Part shown: positions 7,243-56,240 of the stretch, in pieces
How positions within the stretch are numbered: the stretch's first letter is position 1
Layout: each line of letters starts with the position of its first letter
DNA from: Ruficoccus amylovorans
Lineage (GTDB): Bacteria > Verrucomicrobiota > Verrucomicrobiia > Opitutales > Cerasicoccaceae
DNA: 64,000 nucleotides
Direction: 5' to 3'
Assembly (NCBI RefSeq): GCF_014230085.1
Contig: NZ_JACHVB010000012.1
Location: 310,001-374,000, forward strand
Made by a program: the position numbers and the translations under genes
Notes under the pieces: generated by a model
The model's database searches: none
Told to the model about the DNA's origin: nothing
The model's input: the letters and a program-made list of their open reading frames with translations, nothing else

Positions 7243-7364
7243 GGTGTATAATTACTTAATGGTTAATTGCTAATTGTTATTTATTGGTCCGGTCGGCACG
7301 CTGTATCCGTTTTTGAATACAGCATCATGGCGCAGCCATGATCAATGCCTGCACGTGTCACGTG

Positions 7365-7742: not shown

Positions 7743-7908
7743 CTCACACGGAGGCACAGAGGCACGGAGGTTTTTTGTTGTTTAAAATTGGCAGGTGGGA
7801 AGTTCGTGAAACTCTCTAACCGTCGGAGCGGGAAATGTGGAAGCCTTGGCCATCCTGATCGCCCCAACCTTTACTTTTTTCCTCCGTGCCTCTGTGCCTC
7901 CGTGTGAG
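7743..7908. repeat. 28-bp perfect inverted repeat, CACAGAGGCAC family
   Basis: The arm at 7743-7770 (starting CTCACACGGAGGCACAGAGG) is matched base for base by its reverse complement at 7881-7908, with 110 bp between. A related word set (CCACAGAGGACACAGAG) occurs at 20731 and at 36454/36623. In RNA the arms could form a long hairpin in the groES leader region. No coding potential is seen in the loop. Confidence 0.75.
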
Positions 7909-10528: not shown

Positions 10529-10677
10529 TGGAATTCGTAGATGTGTAAATTCATGGATGCGTAGTGTCTGTAAAAGGGGAGGCCCCTCGTGCGGTTGGGG
10601 CTCGGAGGGGGGCGCTCCGGTGCCAGCCGTTCGGGCCATGTGTGTCGTCCGCTGCCTTCCATGCATTTACGAATCGA
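10529..10677. repeat. TTCGTAGATTCG-family repeat pair, diverged
   Basis: Just after the Cdd1-like gene, GAATTCGTAGATGTGTAAAT is followed about 100 bp later by CCATGCATTTACGAATCGAC, its approximate reverse complement. The same words occur at 39727-39892 and 54179-54226. Between the arms is a GC-rich stretch with GGGGAGGCCCC-type palindromes (about 10573-10610). Confidence 0.5.
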
Positions 10678-13934: not shown

Positions 13935-15767
13935 TCAGGCGTGGTCCTTGCCCTTGTCGGCGGTGTAGATGGTGATGTCGGCCGAGTCCACACCGGTGAT
14001 TTCGCGGGCACGCTTGAGGGCGTCGCGAGTGGAGATGGTCGGATTCTCCGGTGAGTAGCGGAAGAAGTTCTTTTCCCCGATCAGGTCGAGCAGGCCCGAC
14101 TGGCGCATGACGGTTTCCAGCTCGGGATGGACGCCGGAGACGATCAGGTCGCTGCCCTTGCTGCGGGCGAAGCGCGTCAGCTCCATCATGGTGCTGGCGG
14201 CGGTGGCGTCGAGGTGCCGGGCGTTGCGCATGCGCAGGATAATGATGCGCAGGTCAGGGTGTTCGGCCAGGTGGCGCATCTGGTCCAGGAACACATCGCT
14301 GGAAGCGAAAAACAGGTCGCCTTCGACGTGGACGATGGCGATTTCAGGACGGCGGTGCTTCTGTACTTCGGGGGCGCGTTCGAGGAGGTTGCCCTGCTCG
14401 TCAAAGGAGATTTCCCGCAGTTCCGGGCGGGCGGCCTGGCGCACAAACAGCCCGATGGAAATAGCCGCGCCCAGGTAAATCGCGGTGTCCAGTGGCAGGA
14501 TGAGCCCGCCGACAAAGGTGACCAAGAACACGGTGGCGTCGTTGCGGGTGGTCTTGAGCATGAGCCGGATCTGCTCCGGGTTGATGAGCGAAATACCGAC
14601 CAGGATGACGAGCGTGGCCAGCGCGGCCCGCGGCAGGTACGCGATCTTGTCGCCGAACAGGAACAGCGCCACAATCAGGATCGTGCCACTGAAGACGCTC
14701 GACATGCGGGTGGCGGGCTTGCTGCGGAAGTTCAGCATCGAGCGCGTGAGCGAGCCGCTGACGGCCATGCCCCCGCCGAGCGAGCTGGCAAAGGTAGCCG
14801 CGCCCATCGAGAGCATTTGCTGGTTCAGGTCGATGCGGTCACCTGCCTGCGCGGCCAGGCTCTTGGCGATGGACGAGCTTTCCAGCATGGCGAGGAAGGC
14901 CACGGCCAGCGCCCCGCCCGCGATCTCCGTGAACTCCTTCCACTGAAAAGTGGGGAGCGTCAGGGGCCAGGAACTGGCGTTGATACCGGAGAGCATTTCG
15001 GGTTCCAGCCCGTAGGGCCGCAGAACGTACACCACCACCGCTGTCACCACCAGCGACAGAGCGATGGTCGGCAGGCCCTTGGCGAAGCGCTTCAGGAGCA
15101 GATAGGAAACGAGCGTGATCCCCGAGACGATGAGCGCGTCGGTGTCCGTCTTTCCCAGTCCGGCGGAAAAGTTACCCAGCGACTCGACGAAGGTCGCCGC
15201 CCGGGGCACATGGAGCCCGCAGACGGTTTTTAGCTGGTTGATGATAATAAGAAAGGCCGCCGCGGTGATGTACCCGCAAATGACGGCCTTTGAAATATAC
15301 TGGGTGATGCCGGCGACTTTGCAGAACGCGCCCACGGTCATGAATATCGCCACGAGCAGCAGCAGCAGCGGCAGGGCGATCAGCGCCTGTCCCGGCGAGT
15401 AGCCCAGCGAGAGAAAGACGGACAGGAGCATGACGGCGGTGGCGTTGCTCGGCCCGAGCATGATAAAGCGAGAGCTGGCCAGCACCGGTCCCGTGATAGT
15501 CGAAAGCGAGGCGCAAAAAATCCCCGTCTGGACGGGAAGGCCCGCGATCAGCGCGTAGGCCATGCTTTGCGGGATGTCGAGCAGGGCGACGTTCATCGCC
15601 GCGCGCGCATCCTGTTTCGCCTTACGCAAGTTGTACTGGCGCAGAACCTTTCCGATGGGAAAAAGCTCCAGTCCTTTCCAGCTCAAACTTTTTTTCTGCG
15701 TACTCTCAATCCCTGCACCCTCATTCATTTTCTCAAGCTCATTATCCAAATCACAAATCAGGCGCAC
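13935..15767 (-). CDS. SulP family anion permease with STAS domain
   Basis: This 610-residue inner-membrane transporter belongs to the SulP/SLC26 family, which moves sulfate, bicarbonate or other anions. The N-terminal segment ALLDIPQSMAYALIAGLP is the family signature. About ten to twelve hydrophobic segments follow up to residue 440. The C-terminal 150 residues form a STAS domain (EIAIVHVEGDLFFASSDVFL, then RNARHLDATAASTMMEL). I chose GTG at 15767 because AAGGAG lies 8 nt upstream; a TTG at 15773 and an ATG at 15728 are in frame. The substrate cannot be read from sequence. The nearby cysCDN genes make sulfate plausible but do not prove it. Confidence 0.88.
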   Translation of the reverse strand: MRLICDLDNELEKMNEGAGIESTQKKSLSWKGLELFPIGKVLRQYNLRKAKQDARAAMNVALLDIPQSMAYALIAGLPVQTGIFCASLSTITGPVLASSRFIMLGPSNATAVMLLSVFLSLGYSPGQALIALPLLLLLVAIFMTVGAFCKVAGITQYISKAVICGYITAAAFLIIINQLKTVCGLHVPRAATFVESLGNFSAGLGKTDTDALIVSGITLVSYLLLKRFAKGLPTIALSLVVTAVVVYVLRPYGLEPEMLSGINASSWPLTLPTFQWKEFTEIAGGALAVAFLAMLESSSIAKSLAAQAGDRIDLNQQMLSMGAATFASSLGGGMAVSGSLTRSMLNFRSKPATRMSSVFSGTILIVALFLFGDKIAYLPRAALATLVILVGISLINPEQIRLMLKTTRNDATVFLVTFVGGLILPLDTAIYLGAAISIGLFVRQAARPELREISFDEQGNLLERAPEVQKHRRPEIAIVHVEGDLFFASSDVFLDQMRHLAEHPDLRIIILRMRNARHLDATAASTMMELTRFARSKGSDLIVSGVHPELETVMRQSGLLDLIGEKNFFRYSPENPTISTRDALKRAREITGVDSADITIYTADKGKDHA

Positions 15768-15867
15768 GGGCAAGACTCCTTACGCACGATTAGTCGGGTT
15801 AACGGATGGCGTCGAAAATTCTGAAGAATTGGGTGGGCGGTGCTTCAGCTTCGCTTATAGGGTTTCC

Positions 15868-16025
15868 TAGAGCGTTTCAAAAATTACTGTAGCCACAAAC
15901 TTTTAATAGCTAAATGGCTGATTGTTAATTGTTGGATTCCGAACGTAGGAAATAACAATTAACCATTTAATCATTTAGCCATTCGGCCATTTTGTGACGG
16001 CTACGACTTTATTTGAAACGCTCTA
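15868..16025. repeat. MITE-like palindromic element, copy 1
   Basis: The element is bounded by 14-bp perfect terminal inverted repeats (TAGAGCGTTTCAAA and its complement) with second-level inverted words GTAGCC/GGCTAC. Inside are oppositely oriented AAATGGCTGATTGTTAATTG and ATTTAGCCATTCGGCC words. Two homologous copies lie at 36489-36620 and 56092-56240, in the reverse orientation. It fills most of the 330-bp gap between the SulP gene and modA and has no coding capacity. The remainder of that gap shows nothing distinctive. Confidence 0.8.
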
Positions 16026-16097
16026 AAGGGCTTAATCGTGGAGTTCAAAAGAAAAACATTTTAATGCTATTGGCACTTCGAGTGCTTGACGAATGGT

Positions 16098-16907
16098 GTG
16101 AGAAAAATCGTACTTCTGTGTGCTCTCTTCGCTCTTGGCTGGGCCGGGTGTGATAAAAAAAATGAGACCCCCGACTCCGCGAAAGTGGTTTCGCCGACGC
16201 TTACGGTTTACGTGGCGGCAAGCCTGACCGATGTCATACAGGAGATCGGAAAGAATTTCGAGGCCGGGCACGGGGCGAAACTCGTCTATAATTTCGCCGG
16301 GTCGGGGTCGCTGGCGCAGCAGATCATGTCGGCCCCGCGTGCGGATGTGTTCATCAGCGCGAACGTGCACTGGATGGACGAGGTGGAGAAGCACGGCGAT
16401 GTGGCCGAGGGCACGAGGAAGCTCCTTCTGCACAACGCGCTGGTCGTTATCGCCAATATCTCCTCGGACTACACCATGAGCGGGCCGCTGGATTTGCCGG
16501 GGATGGATTTCAAGTTCTTTTCCGTGGGCGACCCGGGGCACGTTCCGGCGGGCAGTTATACGAAAAAGTGGCTCGAAGGCGTCACGGATGCGGACGGGAA
16601 GTCCGTCTGGAGCCAGATCGAGAGCCGTCTCTCGCCCGCGCCCGACGTGCGCGCGGCGCTGGCTCAGGTCGAGAGCAAGTCCGACATCATCGGCACCGTT
16701 TACCGCACGGACTCCATGACTGCGGCCGACAAGGTGAAAATTATTTATCAGGTGCCGACCGAGGCGGTGAGGATTGCCTACCCGGTGGCGGCCCTCACGT
16801 CCAGCACTAGCCCCGAATTGGCGCGCGCGTTTGTCGATTTTCTGTTCACACCCAAGGCGCAAAAACTGCTGAGCGAAGCCGGGTTTATCGTGAATAGCGC
16901 AGGGTAA
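16098..16907 (+). CDS. modA: Molybdate ABC transporter, substrate-binding lipoprotein
   Basis: ModA captures molybdate or tungstate in the periplasm and hands it to ModB. Family motifs are [33 protein letters not shown] and [15 protein letters not shown]. With the GTG start at 16098 the product (269 residues) has a lipoprotein signal, [18 protein letters not shown], so it is probably membrane-anchored; a TTG at 16086 would add four residues. Its TAA stop overlaps the ATG of modB, indicating translational coupling. The gene starts 73 bp after a MITE-like element. Confidence 0.95.
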
Positions 16908-20694: not shown

Positions 20695-20730
20695 GGCCGT
20701 GTTTTGCGGGCTGGAGTGAAGCTGTTTTTA

Positions 20731-20766
20731 TGAACCACAGAGGACAAAGAGCGCACAGAGGTTTTA
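20731..20766. repeat. CCACAGAGGACA-family repeat, single arm
   Basis: TGAACCACAGAGGACAAAGA followed by GCGCACAGAGG matches the arms at 36454 and 36623. It starts about 37 bp past the GT39 stop codon. I saw no clear partner arm in the spacer up to 20986. The rest of that spacer is GC-rich with short palindromes, including GTAGGGGCGAAGCCCCTC at 20944-20960. Confidence 0.55.
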
Positions 20767-36453: not shown

Positions 36454-36656
36454 TTAACCACAGAGGACACAGAGAGAGGCTTGATGAACGCTGTACCGCT
36501 GCTTGAATACCGAATGGCTTAAGTGATTAATTGCTGTTTTCTGCGTTCAGCATCCAACAATTAACAATCAACCATTTAGCCATTCAATCACTGTGGCTAT
36601 AGTATTTCCTAAAGTGTTCAAGCGCCTCTCTGTGTTCTCTGTGCCCTCTGTGGTTA
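36454..36656. repeat. Inverted CACAGAGG arms bracketing a MITE-like copy
   Basis: The left arm (36454-36480) begins TTAACCACAGAGGACACAGA. The right arm (36623-36656) is its near reverse complement and ends CCCTCTGTGGTTAA. Between them lies copy 3 of the MITE-like element. The result is a nested structure of two repeat families filling the 284-bp gap between the exported protein gene and mutY. Confidence 0.7.
36489..36620. repeat. MITE-like palindromic element, copy 3 (diverged)
   Basis: The core words CCGAATGGCTTAAGTGATTA, GCATCCAACAATTAACAATC and CACTGTGGCTATAGTATTTC align in order with copies at 15868-16025 (reverse orientation) and 56092-56240. The terminal inverted repeats are decayed compared with copy 1. 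Confidence 0.7.
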
Positions 36657-37909: not shown

Positions 37910-38875
37910 ATGGCCAAGACGGACGAAGACGCCCCCAAGAAGAAGACCCTGTACACGCTCAAGCTGACCGATGGGCAGATGGACCAGGTGAAGGACTGGT
38001 GCGACCGGCACCTGTGGAGTTTTTACGAGGTCGATTACGCCCGTTTCGCCTTCAAGGGCGACGGGGTGAACCTCGTCGGCTACACCAGCGGCAAGCTTGT
38101 GGTGCAGGGCAAAAAGACCGAGGACTGGGTGACGTATGTGCTGGAGGGCGAGATCACCCACGATCCGAAGTTCGGCTATGACGAAGTCCTCAACCCCGAG
38201 TGGTTCGAGACCCATGCCGGGCTTGACGAAAGCGGCAAGGGCGACCTCTTTGGCCCCCTCGTGTCGGCCTGCGTCATCGCGGACAAGCCCATGATCGAAA
38301 AGTGGCGCGAAGCCGGGCTGCAGGACTCCAAGAAAATCACCTCCGACGCCGCCATCCTGCGGCTGGAAAAACTCATCCGCCAGACCAAGGGCGTGGTGGT
38401 CGAGAGCACCTGGGCCGGGATGGGCCGCTACAACGAGCTTTACAAGAAATTCGGCAGTAACCTGAACAAGCTCCTGGCCTGGATGCACGCCAAGTCAGCC
38501 GAAAACGCCCTGGCCAAGCGCCACGTGCCGTGGGGCCTGCTTGACCAGTTCAGCAAGCAGCCGCTCGTCCAGCGTCAGCTCAAGGTGCCGGATTTCGAAC
38601 TGCGCATGCGGACCAAGGCCGAGTCCGACCCCGTGGTCGCGGCGGCCTCCGTCATCGCCCGAGCCGAGTACGTGCGGCAGATGGACAAGCTTTCCGAAGA
38701 GGCCGGGTTCAAACTCGGCAAGGGAGCCAGCGCCGCCGTCAAAAAGCAGGGCAAGCAACTCGTGGAAAAATTCGGCCCCGAGTCCCTCGGCAACTTCGCC
38801 AAGCTCCACTTCCGCACCGCCTACGAGGTGCTCGGCCTGCCCGTCCCCGAAAAACAGCCCTGGCACAGGTATTGA
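37910..38875 (+). CDS. rnhC: Ribonuclease HIII
   Basis: RNase HIII cleaves the RNA strand of RNA-DNA hybrids. The N-terminal 95 residues form the TBP-like substrate-binding domain (LYTLKLTDGQMDQVKDWC). The catalytic domain begins AGLDESGKGDLFGPLVSACV, the HIII variant of the active site (DExGKG with FGPLV), followed by LQDSKKIT and ESDPVVAAASVIAR. At 321 residues it has the usual two-domain length. It is followed about 100 bp later by RNase HII on the same strand, a close pairing of two type 2 RNases H. Confidence 0.95.
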   Translation: MAKTDEDAPKKKTLYTLKLTDGQMDQVKDWCDRHLWSFYEVDYARFAFKGDGVNLVGYTSGKLVVQGKKTEDWVTYVLEGEITHDPKFGYDEVLNPEWFETHAGLDESGKGDLFGPLVSACVIADKPMIEKWREAGLQDSKKITSDAAILRLEKLIRQTKGVVVESTWAGMGRYNELYKKFGSNLNKLLAWMHAKSAENALAKRHVPWGLLDQFSKQPLVQRQLKVPDFELRMRTKAESDPVVAAASVIARAEYVRQMDKLSEEAGFKLGKGASAAVKKQGKQLVEKFGPESLGNFAKLHFRTAYEVLGLPVPEKQPWHRY

Positions 38876-38880
38876 TAAAC

Positions 38881-39013
38881 AAGTTTGAGAGTTTAAGAGT
38901 TTGAAAGTTTGAGAGTTGGGGGCGGTTGGAACGATTAAAGGTGGAGAAGTTTTACGAAACGGGAACAGCTACGCGATGAACTCTCAAACCAACAAACTTT
39001 CAAACTCTCAAAC
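38881..39013. repeat. TTTGAGAGTTTGAAAG-family inverted pair
   Basis: The left arm (38881-38919) reads AAGTTTGAGAGTTTAAGAGT and continues TTGAAAGTTTGAGAGTT. The right arm (38980-39013) is the reverse complement type (AACTCTCAAACCAACAAACT and on). Arms lie 60 bp apart and could form a long hairpin. The right arm overlaps the proposed first codons of rnhB. Confidence 0.8.
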
Positions 39014-39734
39014 CTCCTTCCCCCTCTGGGAGATGGACTGTGGCGTCTTTCGCGAATGCGGGGCGCTCGTGGGGGTGGACGAGGCCGGACGCGGGGCCTT
39101 GGCCGGGCCGGTGGTGGCGGCGGCGTTTTGTCCCGGAGAGGGATTTTTTGAAAATAGCGAGCTGCGGGAACTTTGCGCCGACATCACCGACTCGAAGCTC
39201 CTTTCCCCCGCCCAGCGCGAGGAGATCCTCGCCCGGCTGGAACAGTGGCGGGACGAGGGCAGGGTGGCCTTTGCCGCCGCGGCCGGCGAGATTGACGAGA
39301 TTGAGCGCCTGAACATCCTTGGTGCGACCCGGCTGGCCATGACCCGGGCGCTGGAAGCGCTCCCTTTGGAGTTGCCGTCCGCCGGGGAGGCGGAGATGCC
39401 GCTTTTTGAACAAGCGGCCAGCGGCCCGCGCCTGCGTATTCTGATCGACGGCAAGCCCTTGAAGAACTTCCCCTACGCCCACGACGGGCTGGTCAAAGGT
39501 GACAGCCGCAGCCTCTGCATTGCCGCCGCCTCCATCGTGGCCAAGGTCACGCGGGACCGGCTCATGGTCGCGCTCGACGCGGAGTTCCCCGCCTACGGTT
39601 TCGCCGGGCACAAGGGCTACGGCACCGCTACCCATCGGGCCGCCCTGCACGCGCATGGCCCGTGCCCGTATCACCGCACACTGTTTTTGAGGAAAGTGCT
39701 CGGTGAAGGGGAGGGGAAAGGGAGAAATTCGTAG
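38976..39734 (+). CDS. rnhB: Ribonuclease HII
   Basis: RNase HII removes ribonucleotides and RNA primers from DNA. Catalytic motifs are ALVGVDEAGRGALAGPVVAA, ITDSKLLSP, and SRSLCIAAASIVAKVTRD, followed by GYGTATHRAALHAHGPCPYH. The first 13-14 residues from ATG 38976 (MNSQTNKLSNSQTS) are encoded by an intergenic repeat arm, not by ancestral gene sequence. The next ATG is 39033 (MDCGVFREC), which would cut into a conserved-looking leader (FPLWEMD). The gene either recruited its start codon from the repeat or starts at 39033. A 252-residue product is assumed. Confidence 0.92.
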   Translation: MNSQTNKLSNSQTSFPLWEMDCGVFRECGALVGVDEAGRGALAGPVVAAAFCPGEGFFENSELRELCADITDSKLLSPAQREEILARLEQWRDEGRVAFAAAAGEIDEIERLNILGATRLAMTRALEALPLELPSAGEAEMPLFEQAASGPRLRILIDGKPLKNFPYAHDGLVKGDSRSLCIAAASIVAKVTRDRLMVALDAEFPAYGFAGHKGYGTATHRAALHAHGPCPYHRTLFLRKVLGEGEGKGRNS

Positions 39735-39892
39735 ATTTATAGATTCGTAGATTCTTGGGATTCTTAAGTTCGTAGGTCGGTCGGAGGGGTATCCGCAGAG
39801 TTTTTTTAGGGAGCGGATTTTCTTGGCGGCAGTGGTTGCCTTGACGGGCGGTCCCGTTTACGAATCTTTGAATTTACACATCTACGAATTTC
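39727..39892. repeat. TTCGTAGATTCG-family inverted pair
   Basis: The left arm (39727-39775) begins ATTCGTAGATTTATAGATTC and overlaps the rnhB stop. The right arm (39856-39892) carries the opposite-strand words GTTTACGAATCTTTGAATTT and ACACATCTACGAATTTC, ending 13 bp before pdxJ. The same words appear near 10.5 and 54.2 kb. Confidence 0.75.
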
Positions 39893-39905
39893 ATTCCCTC
39901 CCCTT

Positions 39906-47176: not shown

Positions 47177-49042
47177 ATGAGCACTCCACACGGGGCCGAG
47201 TCCACCGGGCGCGCGCCCCTGCGATGTATCATGGCTGGCGTGGCGCTGGTCTTTACAGTCCTGCTGACGGTTATCGCCTTTCCGCCCTTCGATGTGGCCG
47301 AGGCGGCCTATGTCTTGGCCGTCCCGCTCTTGCTGTGGACGACTGCCCGGCCCCGCTGGCGCAGATTTCTGCTCGGGGCCTGGGGCGCGTACGCGGTTAG
47401 CTGGTTCTTCCTCCTGATCTGGCTCCGACACATGGAGCCTCCCATGGGCTGGATCGCGTTGATCGTGTTATCGGGTATACTGGGGGCCTTTAACCTTACC
47501 TGGGCCGCCGCCGCCCGCTGGCTTTTCCCCCGCGCCATGGAGCGTTCCTTGCGTCCGCGCCTGATCGCCCTGCTCGGGCTGGCCGGAGCGTGGGTCGTGA
47601 TCGAGTGGGCACGGAGCTGGATGCTGTTTGGCTTTCCCTGGGCCACGCTGGCGGTTAGCCAGTGGCAACGCCCGCCGATGCTCCAGATTGCTGCCTGGAC
47701 CGGGGCCTACGGCGTCTCCTTTATCCTGATCTTCTTCAACCTCGCGCTGGCGGGCTATTTCTGGCGACTGCTGAATCCCGAGCCCGACGATGAGGCGGAA
47801 GGCGAGGAAATGGACGCGGAAAACGACACCACCGCCGGGAAGAACATCGCCCGCGATTCCGCGCCGGATCAGGACGACTCCTCATCTGACGGCCGCGACA
47901 CCGATCCCGACGCCGAGGATGAGCGCGGGCGTCCTTACCGCAGTCTCGGGCGTTCGTTATTGCATACCCGGCCGCAGCGTCCGGTCACCAACGCGCTTTC
48001 CCTCAGCGGCGCCTTTTCCATGGCCCGCGCGCCGGGCGGGAGTTTTACGCGTTTCCTGCGGGTGAGCCCGGAGCTGGCCCTCGCGTTGGCTATGGTGCTT
48101 GGGAGCCTCTGGCTGTTTTTCAAAACCATCCCCCGTGCCGACGAGACGGGTCCGATGTTCAAGGCCGGGGTGGTGCAGCCCTGGACCGACCCGCAAAAGA
48201 AGTGGGACATCAACTTTTTCCGCGAAAACCTGCTCACGCTCAGCTCCCTGACCGAACGGGCGGCCCTGAGCGACCCGGACCTGATCGTGTGGCCGGAAGC
48301 GGCCACGCCCGGCCCGCTGCTGGACCCCGAAGACCCGCGCATGAAGGCATGGGTCGAGCAACTGGTGAACTTCGCCGGTGTCCCGCTGCTGACCGGCAAT
48401 ATGGCCATCGACGACGGCCACTGGTACAACGCCGCCTTTGTCATCTACCCGGCCAGCGGCACCTACGGTGAGTGGTACGCCAAGCAGAAACGCGTCCCTT
48501 TCGGCGAGTTTGTGCCGTTCCGCGAGTGGTTGCCCTTTCTGGGCAAGTTCGTCCCGCTGGAGGACATCGCCCGCGGCCCCGGCCCGGTCATCCTGCCGGT
48601 CGAACTGCCCGAGGGCACCTACAACGCCGGACCGCTCATCTGCTACGAGGACATTTTTCCAACACTGGCCCGGCAAGTGACCGCGATGGGGGCGGACTTC
48701 CTGCTCGTCGTGACCAACGACGCCTGGTACGGCCAGGAGGGTGGGGCGATCCAGCACGCAGCGCACTCCGTCCTGCGGGCGGTGGAAACCCGCCGCCCCG
48801 TCCTGCGCTGCGGCAACAACGGCTGGAGCGGCTGGATTGACGAACAGGGCCGCATCCGAGACGTGCTGCGCGGGATTAACGGCTCCACCTATTTTCAGGG
48901 AACGGGCACCTTTGACTTGCGGCACGACCTGCGCTGGGGCGGCGTGCTGACCCCCTATGTCCGCTATGGCGACTGGTTTGTCGGCCTGTGTGCGCTCTTT
49001 TTTGCCTGGGCGGCGGTCAGGGAGAATCGTTTGAGAGTTTGA
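47177..49042 (+). CDS. lnt: Apolipoprotein N-acyltransferase
   Basis: Lnt adds the third acyl chain to lipoproteins in the inner membrane. About seven hydrophobic helices precede a nitrilase domain with the catalytic triad: Glu in VWPEAATPGP, Lys in YAKQKRVPFGEF and Cys in LICYEDIFPT. The length of 621 residues exceeds the usual 500 because residues about 200-295 form an acidic, then basic, loop (PEPDDEAEGEEMDAENDTT and on) between helices. The last residues and stop (RLRV-stop) are encoded by an intergenic repeat arm. It follows secA by 32 bp. Confidence 0.95.
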   Translation: MSTPHGAESTGRAPLRCIMAGVALVFTVLLTVIAFPPFDVAEAAYVLAVPLLLWTTARPRWRRFLLGAWGAYAVSWFFLLIWLRHMEPPMGWIALIVLSGILGAFNLTWAAAARWLFPRAMERSLRPRLIALLGLAGAWVVIEWARSWMLFGFPWATLAVSQWQRPPMLQIAAWTGAYGVSFILIFFNLALAGYFWRLLNPEPDDEAEGEEMDAENDTTAGKNIARDSAPDQDDSSSDGRDTDPDAEDERGRPYRSLGRSLLHTRPQRPVTNALSLSGAFSMARAPGGSFTRFLRVSPELALALAMVLGSLWLFFKTIPRADETGPMFKAGVVQPWTDPQKKWDINFFRENLLTLSSLTERAALSDPDLIVWPEAATPGPLLDPEDPRMKAWVEQLVNFAGVPLLTGNMAIDDGHWYNAAFVIYPASGTYGEWYAKQKRVPFGEFVPFREWLPFLGKFVPLEDIARGPGPVILPVELPEGTYNAGPLICYEDIFPTLARQVTAMGADFLLVVTNDAWYGQEGGAIQHAAHSVLRAVETRRPVLRCGNNGWSGWIDEQGRIRDVLRGINGSTYFQGTGTFDLRHDLRWGGVLTPYVRYGDWFVGLCALFFAWAAVRENRLRV

Positions 49043-49064
49043 AGGTTTGAGAGTTTGAAAGTTG
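49029..49064. repeat. TTTGAGAGTTTGAAAG-family arm over lnt stop
   Basis: GTTTGAGAGTTTGAAGGTTT continues with GAGAGTTTGAAAGTT. The lnt stop codon is the TGA inside this arm. The 180 bp after it, up to the BMC operon, have no gene. A TTGACA hexamer at 49212 is a candidate -35 box for the BMC operon, but no good -10 is spaced correctly. Confidence 0.65.
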
Positions 49065-49287
49065 GGCGTTCGCTGGGGCTAGGCGAGGGGAGTTCGCACT
49101 GATAAAAGCGGACGATTGGTGGATTTTAGAGACTTGGTTGTCTCTGGTGGGTGACATTTGACCGCTGGCGTTTTATTTTTGTGATTCCGGCAAATCATGC
49201 GAAAATAGTCGTTGACAGGATTGGAAGATTTTGAAAGTTTTCACTCATAATCTTCTAGAAACCTTTCATAACCCCTTCACATTTCCC

Positions 49288-50329: not shown

Positions 50330-50608
50330 ATGGCAAAACAAGCTATCGGCATGATCGAAACCAAGGGCCTGATCAGCCTGCTCGAAGCCACTGACGCCGC
50401 CCTCAAGTCGGCCGACGTCACTCTCGCCGGCTGGGAAAAGATCGGCAGCGGGATCGTTACGGGCTTCTTCGCCGGAGACGTCGCCGCGGTCAAGGCCGCC
50501 GTTGACGCTGGTGCTGAAGCCGCCTCGGCGGTCGGCCAGGTGGTCGGCGTCCAGGTGATTCCCCGCCCGCACGACGACCTCTCCAAGCTCGGCCCCTGGA
50601 TCAGCTAA
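50330..50608 (+). CDS. BMC-H shell protein 2
   Basis: A second single-domain hexameric shell protein, 92 residues, starting [20 protein letters not shown]. The pore loop reads KIGSGI, the common type in metabolosome shells. The edge residues [12 protein letters not shown] are conserved. It follows BMC-H 1 by 27 bp and is followed by an inverted-repeat spacer before ackA. Confidence 0.97.
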
Positions 50609-50612
50609 CCTA

Positions 50613-50714
50613 GTTCAAGCGTTTGAGAGTTTAAGTGTTTGGGAGTCGGGTTTCCTCCGGAGACCCACGGCTTTGAATAACGCTTGAGCTTTCGAACCTT
50701 CAAACTTTCCAACG
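50613..50714. repeat. Inverted repeat between BMC-H2 and ackA
   Basis: The left arm GTTCAAGCGTTTGAGAGTTT and right arm (50679-50714: AACGCTTGAGCTTTCGAACC and on) belong to the TTTGAGAG family in opposite orientation. The loop has its own short stem (GGGTTTCC/GGAGACCC). The right arm ends 5 bp before the ackA GTG start. Confidence 0.75.
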
Positions 50715-51958: not shown

Positions 51959-52249
51959 ATGTCCCAAGCACTCGGACTCCTCGAAACCAAAGGTCTTATC
52001 TCGCTCGTGCAGGGCGTTGATGCCATGCTCAAGGCTGCCAATGTCGAATTGGTCGGCCCGATGAAAAGCGTCGGCAGCGCGCTGGTCAGCGCGACGATCG
52101 TCGGTGATGTCGCCGCGGTCAAGGCCGCCATCGACGCCGGTGCCCAGTCGGCTTCCGCCTTCGGCGAAGTCGTCAGCGCGCACGTCATCGCCCGCCCGGC
52201 TGAAGAGCTGAGCAAGAGCATCCTCAAGGCCCCCGCCGCGAAGAAGTAA
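51959..52249 (+). CDS. BMC-H shell protein 3
   Basis: A third hexameric shell protein, 96 residues, with [39 protein letters not shown] and VIARPAEELSKS. The pore loop reads SVGSAL, different from the other two, so its pore should have different size and polarity. A short Lys/Ala tail (APAAKK) extends past the domain. It lies 48 bp after ackA. Confidence 0.96.
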   Translation: MSQALGLLETKGLISLVQGVDAMLKAANVELVGPMKSVGSALVSATIVGDVAAVKAAIDAGAQSASAFGEVVSAHVIARPAEELSKSILKAPAAKK

Positions 52250-52262
52250 CCCGAAACGTCGG

Positions 52263-52367
52263 GAGTTTGAACGTTTGAGAGTTTGAAAGTTGCCGGTGCG
52301 TGTCCCTCGGGCCATCCGCACTGCTTCTGCAAACTCTCAAACCAAAAACGTTCAAACTCTCAAACTT
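52263..52367. repeat. Inverted repeat between BMC-H3 and BMC-P1
   Basis: The left arm (52263-52291) starts GAGTTTGAACGTTTGAGAGT. The right arm (52329-52367) is its reverse type (GCAAACTCTCAAACCAAAAA, then CGTTCAAACTCTCAAAC). The arms are 37 bp apart and can form a strong hairpin in the operon transcript, 7 bp before the BMC-P1 start. Confidence 0.8.
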
Positions 52368-54178: not shown

Positions 54179-54226
54179 ATTTGTAGATTCCGAATTTGTA
54201 GATTCGTAGATTCGGGATTTGTGCAT
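54179..54226. repeat. TTCGTAGATTCG-family repeat after the aldehyde dehydrogenase
   Basis: The stretch TTTGTAGATTCCGAATTTGT continues with AGATTCGTAGATTCGGGATT, directly after the dehydrogenase stop. It matches the arms at 39727 and 10529. No clear opposite arm is seen before the next gene. Confidence 0.65.
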
Positions 54227-56091: not shown

Positions 56092-56240
56092 TAGGGCGAT
56101 TTGAATAAGGCCGTAGCCGCCACTATAAGACCGAATGGCTAAATGGCTAATTGTTGTTTTCTACGTTCCGCATCCAACAATTAACAATTAGCCATTTAAC
56201 CATCCTACCACTGTGGCTACAGTATTTTTTAAACGTTTTA
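56092..56240. repeat. MITE-like palindromic element, copy 2
   Basis: It starts TAGGGCGATTTGAATAAG and ends TTTTTTAAACGTTTTA, with inner words CCGTAGCC, GACCGAATGGCTAAATGGCT, ATCCAACAATTAACAATTAG and GTGGCTACAGTA. These align in order with copy 1 read on the opposite strand. It begins immediately after the terminator of the BMC operon. Confidence 0.8.

Follow-up and report, generated by a model that had tools for sequence, protein, structure and literature searches.

A 158-bp palindromic element of Ruficoccus amylovorans as a probable MITE with IS630-type ends and a host-palindrome core

The 158-bp element at positions 15868..16025 of the window (the whole 64,000-nucleotide stretch of DNA analysed here) is very probably a non-autonomous MITE with IS630 ends that is moved in trans and carries a host palindrome as its core; we put the probability of this reading at about 0.92. 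The mechanism proposed here starts from an IS630-family insertion sequence (IS) of 1004 bp that is resident in the genome. Its transposase, encoded in two ORFs that are probably joined by a frameshift, would bind the MITE ends, which measure about 27 bp each and resemble those of the IS. Acting in trans, it would then cut out the MITE and paste it into TA dinucleotides that are mostly intergenic. The MITE interior would go back to a host intergenic palindrome of ~8-bp units that came to be flanked by an IS end on each side.

The element (copy 1 of family A; plus strand, full-length, TA-bounded) lies between two divergent genes, one for a sulfate permease on the minus strand and one for a modA-like solute-binding protein on the plus strand. 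It is non-coding, and it occupies exactly the positions given in the original prediction, which had described a 158-bp element with 14-bp perfect terminal inverted repeats (TIRs; TAGAGCGTTTCAAA). The left end is an IS-like terminal segment (15868..15894, plus strand; TAGAGCGTTTCAAA...CTGTAGCC), of which the outer 14 bp constitute the perfect TIR. The IS-like segment at the right end (TAGAGCGTTTCAAATAAAGTCGTAGCC; 15999..16025) reads inward on the minus strand. Between them, at 15905..15986 (plus strand), lies a palindrome of ~8-bp repeats (AATGGCTA / ATTGTTAA and their complement) that is not derived from the IS. Both strands of copy 1 fold far more stably than shuffled sequence does (z -8.1 and -8.7). 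Strong folding is expected, since the element is a nearly complete palindrome.

Very stable hairpins on both strands (z about -8) would also be formed by a structured repeat, REP/ERIC-like or active at the RNA level, that spread via a RAYT/IS200-type transposase or by recombination and resembled IS630 ends by coincidence. The mostly intergenic position of the copies and the occurrence of the interior without ends would fit such a repeat as well. We consider this explanation very improbable. The consensus structure is almost devoid of compensatory changes, with double changes in only 2 of 21 pairs, and conserved RNA structure is therefore unsupported. An Rfam scan of the window detected SRP and 6S RNA only, with no hit at the element. 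REP/RAYT-type repeats are palindromes of 20-40 bp with a GTAG or CGTC tag that are associated with a tyrosine transposase (PMC3733652); assignment to this type was rejected, the element being a 158-bp TA-bounded unit whose ends match an element with a DDE transposase. A promoter or terminator role found no support either: there is no sigma-70-like site in 15600-16300, and the terminator-like sites fall beyond the element, at a frequency close to that expected by chance.

Two further copies in the window had been predicted on the other strand, and profile matches place both on the minus strand. Copy 2 (56092..56240; 158 bits, E 1e-31) has partly decayed ends and is flanked by an aldolase-family gene on one side and the SRP RNA on the other. 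Copy 3 (120 bits, E 2e-23) is old, has one eroded end and sits within CACAGAGG-type palindrome arms. Its extent had been given as 36489-36620 and is slightly wider in the profile match (36472..36621). The stretch between groES and groEL (7248..7290, plus strand), which had been noted as a short fragment with the words of the element, does share octamer words; however, it has no TIR and gave no profile match even at E 10. We reject it as a fourth copy because it resembles the free-standing octamer arrays of the genome, and list it as a free octamer half-array. The window also contains other intergenic families of inverted arms with ~8-bp periodicity (GTTTGAGA, ATTCGTAG, CACAGAGG), in many cases with 60-130 bp of intergenic sequence between the arms (38875-39013, 49021-49066, 50605-50658, 52249-52302; 10532-10558, 39712-39904, 54193-54219; 7743-7908, 20726-20760).

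A family A profile was built from 33 copies, and loci were counted at E<=0.01 in the element's own genome (G000, a 4.5-Mb draft of 64 contigs). The large genome-wide family that had been anticipated from the window was found, with 76 distinct profile loci. On inspection about 8 of the 76 consisted of interior only or lacked ends, and ~68 were MITE copies or remnants with at least one transposon end. Nucleotide searches of G000 with copy 1 and with copy 2 gave at least 40 matches each. Among the matches listed, at least 12 copies match copy 1 at 94-100% identity; the remaining copies form older groups (roughly 70-87% identity) with unrelated flanks. Family A thus has the many dispersed copies in unrelated flanks that characterise a MITE, and its alignment breaks off sharply at TA on either side. 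The 14-mer TAGAGCGTTTCAAA occurs, with at most one mismatch, at 39 places in G000, compared with 1 for the reversed control. All of its exact genomic matches are part of a MITE or IS copy, which argues against a structured repeat with coincidental ends. A DNA search among 54 genomes (own and relatives) detected family A in G000 and, apart from it, in a single congener, G002. The close IS is likewise present in these two genomes, and both it and family A are absent from G001 and G003.

The original prediction saw no transposase and left mobilisation in trans and spread as a structured repeat side by side. An IS630 transposase is encoded elsewhere in G000, in a gene bounded by TAGAGCGTTTCAAA ends, and it may well mobilise the MITE in trans. 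The resident IS630-family IS measures 1004 bp and has a perfect 24-bp TIR (TAGAGCGTTTCAAATAAAACTGTA) that opens with TAGAGCGTTTCAAA as in the MITE. Two full and identical copies (C42:57047-58050 and C63:4-1007) are delimited by TAGAGCGTTTCAAA pairs exactly 1004 bp apart. Four more copies (C4, C34, C22, C25; 99.9-100% identical) are cut at contig ends, and a 58-bp relic of an IS end is found at C4:16059. The IS has two overlapping ORFs with matches to DDE_3 (6e-24), HTH_Tnp_IS630 and NCBIfam transpos_IS630; the last is the best match for both ORFs, with either half alone below the whole-protein cutoff. The D34E spacing is found in the DNLRAHK...PIE stretch of the transposase. With its DDE_3-type transposase, a size of ~1 kb and termini in TA, the IS has the features of the IS630 family. 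Because a run of seven A (A7) sits at the ORF overlap, the sequence suggests that translational frameshifting at this run joins the two ORFs.

The ends of the MITE match those of this autonomous partner: the outer 14 bp are identical, with a few differing positions further inward. That the full 14-bp MITE end is common to the IS TIR is a further point against coincidental resemblance. IS630 relatives from Opitutaceae and from further Verrucomicrobiota MAGs are bounded on either side by TIRs of close similarity, ~1003-1008 bp apart; these ends therefore belong to this transposase lineage. In two MITE copies (G000:C25:843-970, L039, and G000:C22:19796-19922, L040) the IS sits within the element, each time at the interior TA that precedes AATGG and in the same orientation.

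Insertion sites were compared between G000 and its relatives, as the original prediction had proposed. Most intact family A copies have TA at both ends and no longer duplication. At the L010 locus, G001 and G002 have a single TA where G000 has TA-MITE-TA. The G002 sequence can be aligned through the L002 site and has no element there, at a divergence too high to fix the exact empty site; the GTTTGAGA arms are retained there in G002 with altered units. The interval between the sulfate permease (SulP) and ModA genes, which holds copy 1, spans 325 bp in G000. In G002 this interval has no MITE and is 152 bp shorter (173 bp); it is too diverged for an exact junction. The element is hence absent from relatives at all three loci, with only L010 resolving to a single TA. 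Target-site duplication together with empty sites is the pattern of a MITE, and TA-bounded insertions with a single-TA empty site are difficult to reconcile with a structured repeat. Most sites avoid long open frames: the stop-free span has a median of 123 codons at the insertion sites, versus 409 at random TA sites. At L010 (G000:C14:140158-140315) the target TA apparently belonged to the TAG stop codon of a gene, and the stop is retained by the first bases of the MITE itself, which read TAG on the strand of that gene.

The interior belongs to a separate repeat class that also occurs without transposon ends, which the original prediction had overlooked; the groES-groEL stretch is a member of this class. 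The family A core is a palindrome of (AATGGYYR)-type octamers and is not IS sequence. Its right arm repeats at lag 8 with 0.69 identity (0 of 1000 shuffles), and the left arm peaks at lag 7-8. A three-unit octamer pattern has 198 occurrences in G000, many of them inside MITE copies, and 0 in the reversed control. About 11 of the inspected places were free arrays that lack transposon ends, and in some of them the loops are much longer. Such arrays occur in both G000 and G002. They would be expected if the octamer palindrome were the primary element, with IS630 ends added by later flanking IS insertions and spread by either part, and the IS does insert at TA within the octamer array of the two interrupted MITE copies on C25 and C22. 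However, two-ended copies are collinear over all 158 bp and their flanks are unrelated beyond the TA, so that the whole framed unit moved. We rate this order of events as highly unlikely, marginally more so than the structured repeat. The MITE is most simply read as two IS ends that captured a host palindrome between them. Capture rather than release is the probable direction and is not settled, because G001 and G003 have neither family A nor, by the pattern used, free octamer arrays.

In the sister species G003, ~20 copies, mostly at or near 100% identity (for example L167, L169, L171 and L175), carry a different palindrome, with ACCACGGAT/CACAGATT units, between ends like those of family A (TAGAGCATTTTAAGAAATATTGTGTCC...GGCTACATTTTTATTTAAACTGCCCTA). 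No close IS partner for these MITEs was detected in G003. G002 holds a few diverged copies with family-A-like ends around the ACCACGGAT/CACAGATT palindrome, which is also found free in this genome (TTTTAACCACGGATCACACGGATGGCACGGAT...). A second MITE family in G000 (~155 bp, CTAG-bounded, CACCGCAGAGG-type core) has more than 15 copies at 95-99% identity; its short copies, such as L209-L223, number about 15. It is accompanied by its own IS630 element of 1148 bp (G000:C19:53045-54192, L259; TIR CTAGTGTYGTGTTAGCTAAGTTC). With this second IS630/MITE pair, the same design recurs in G000. Several family A copies (L006, L011, L015) abut the ends of the second pair exactly. The chances seem about even that, in this genus, IS630-type ends have time and again taken up short-unit (8-10 bp) palindromes from the intergenic DNA of the host, and that these frames disperse repeats that are otherwise free. 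If so, sister species would have one transposon frame filled with different palindromes.

Literature searches on Verrucomicrobia IS630 MITEs and on the repeat words returned no prior description. Family A adds a MITE family paired with a probable transposase source in a phylum that had none in the literature searched. Same ends, different cores, free cores and empty sites form a natural series in which the origin of MITE interiors unrelated to the parent IS can be studied, an origin usually left unexplained in bacterial MITEs. In the properties tested family A is an IS630-derived MITE, a kind of mobile DNA already known and essentially an ordinary case; it is unusual only in that host palindromes recur as the core.

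The closest precedent is RUP of Streptococcus pneumoniae with IS630-Spn1. RUP is 107 bp long and has about 108 intergenic copies at TA targets (PMC2229807, citing Oggioni and Claverys 1999); its TIRs match the resident IS630-family element IS630-Spn1, and mobilisation in trans has been proposed. Both are short and intergenic, with TIRs that match a resident IS630-family IS and with TA targets. Family A differs in sequence and host, in a core that is an identifiable class of host palindrome, and in having sister species with another core in related ends. The Neisseria elements known as Correia/NEMIS, of about 107 and 155 bp, have 24-bp TIRs with TA termini, filled and empty sites and stable stem-loops (PMC2229807). 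They are similar to family A in size and in each of these features by description, in another host and presumably with another sequence. The BrickBuilt MITE of Porphyromonas gingivalis is intergenic, has an interior array of short repeat units and ends resembling those of a resident IS (PMC4596501). Its array is a 23-bp direct minisatellite, in contrast to the palindromic arms of ~8-bp units in family A, and the IS partners are different (PMC4596501).
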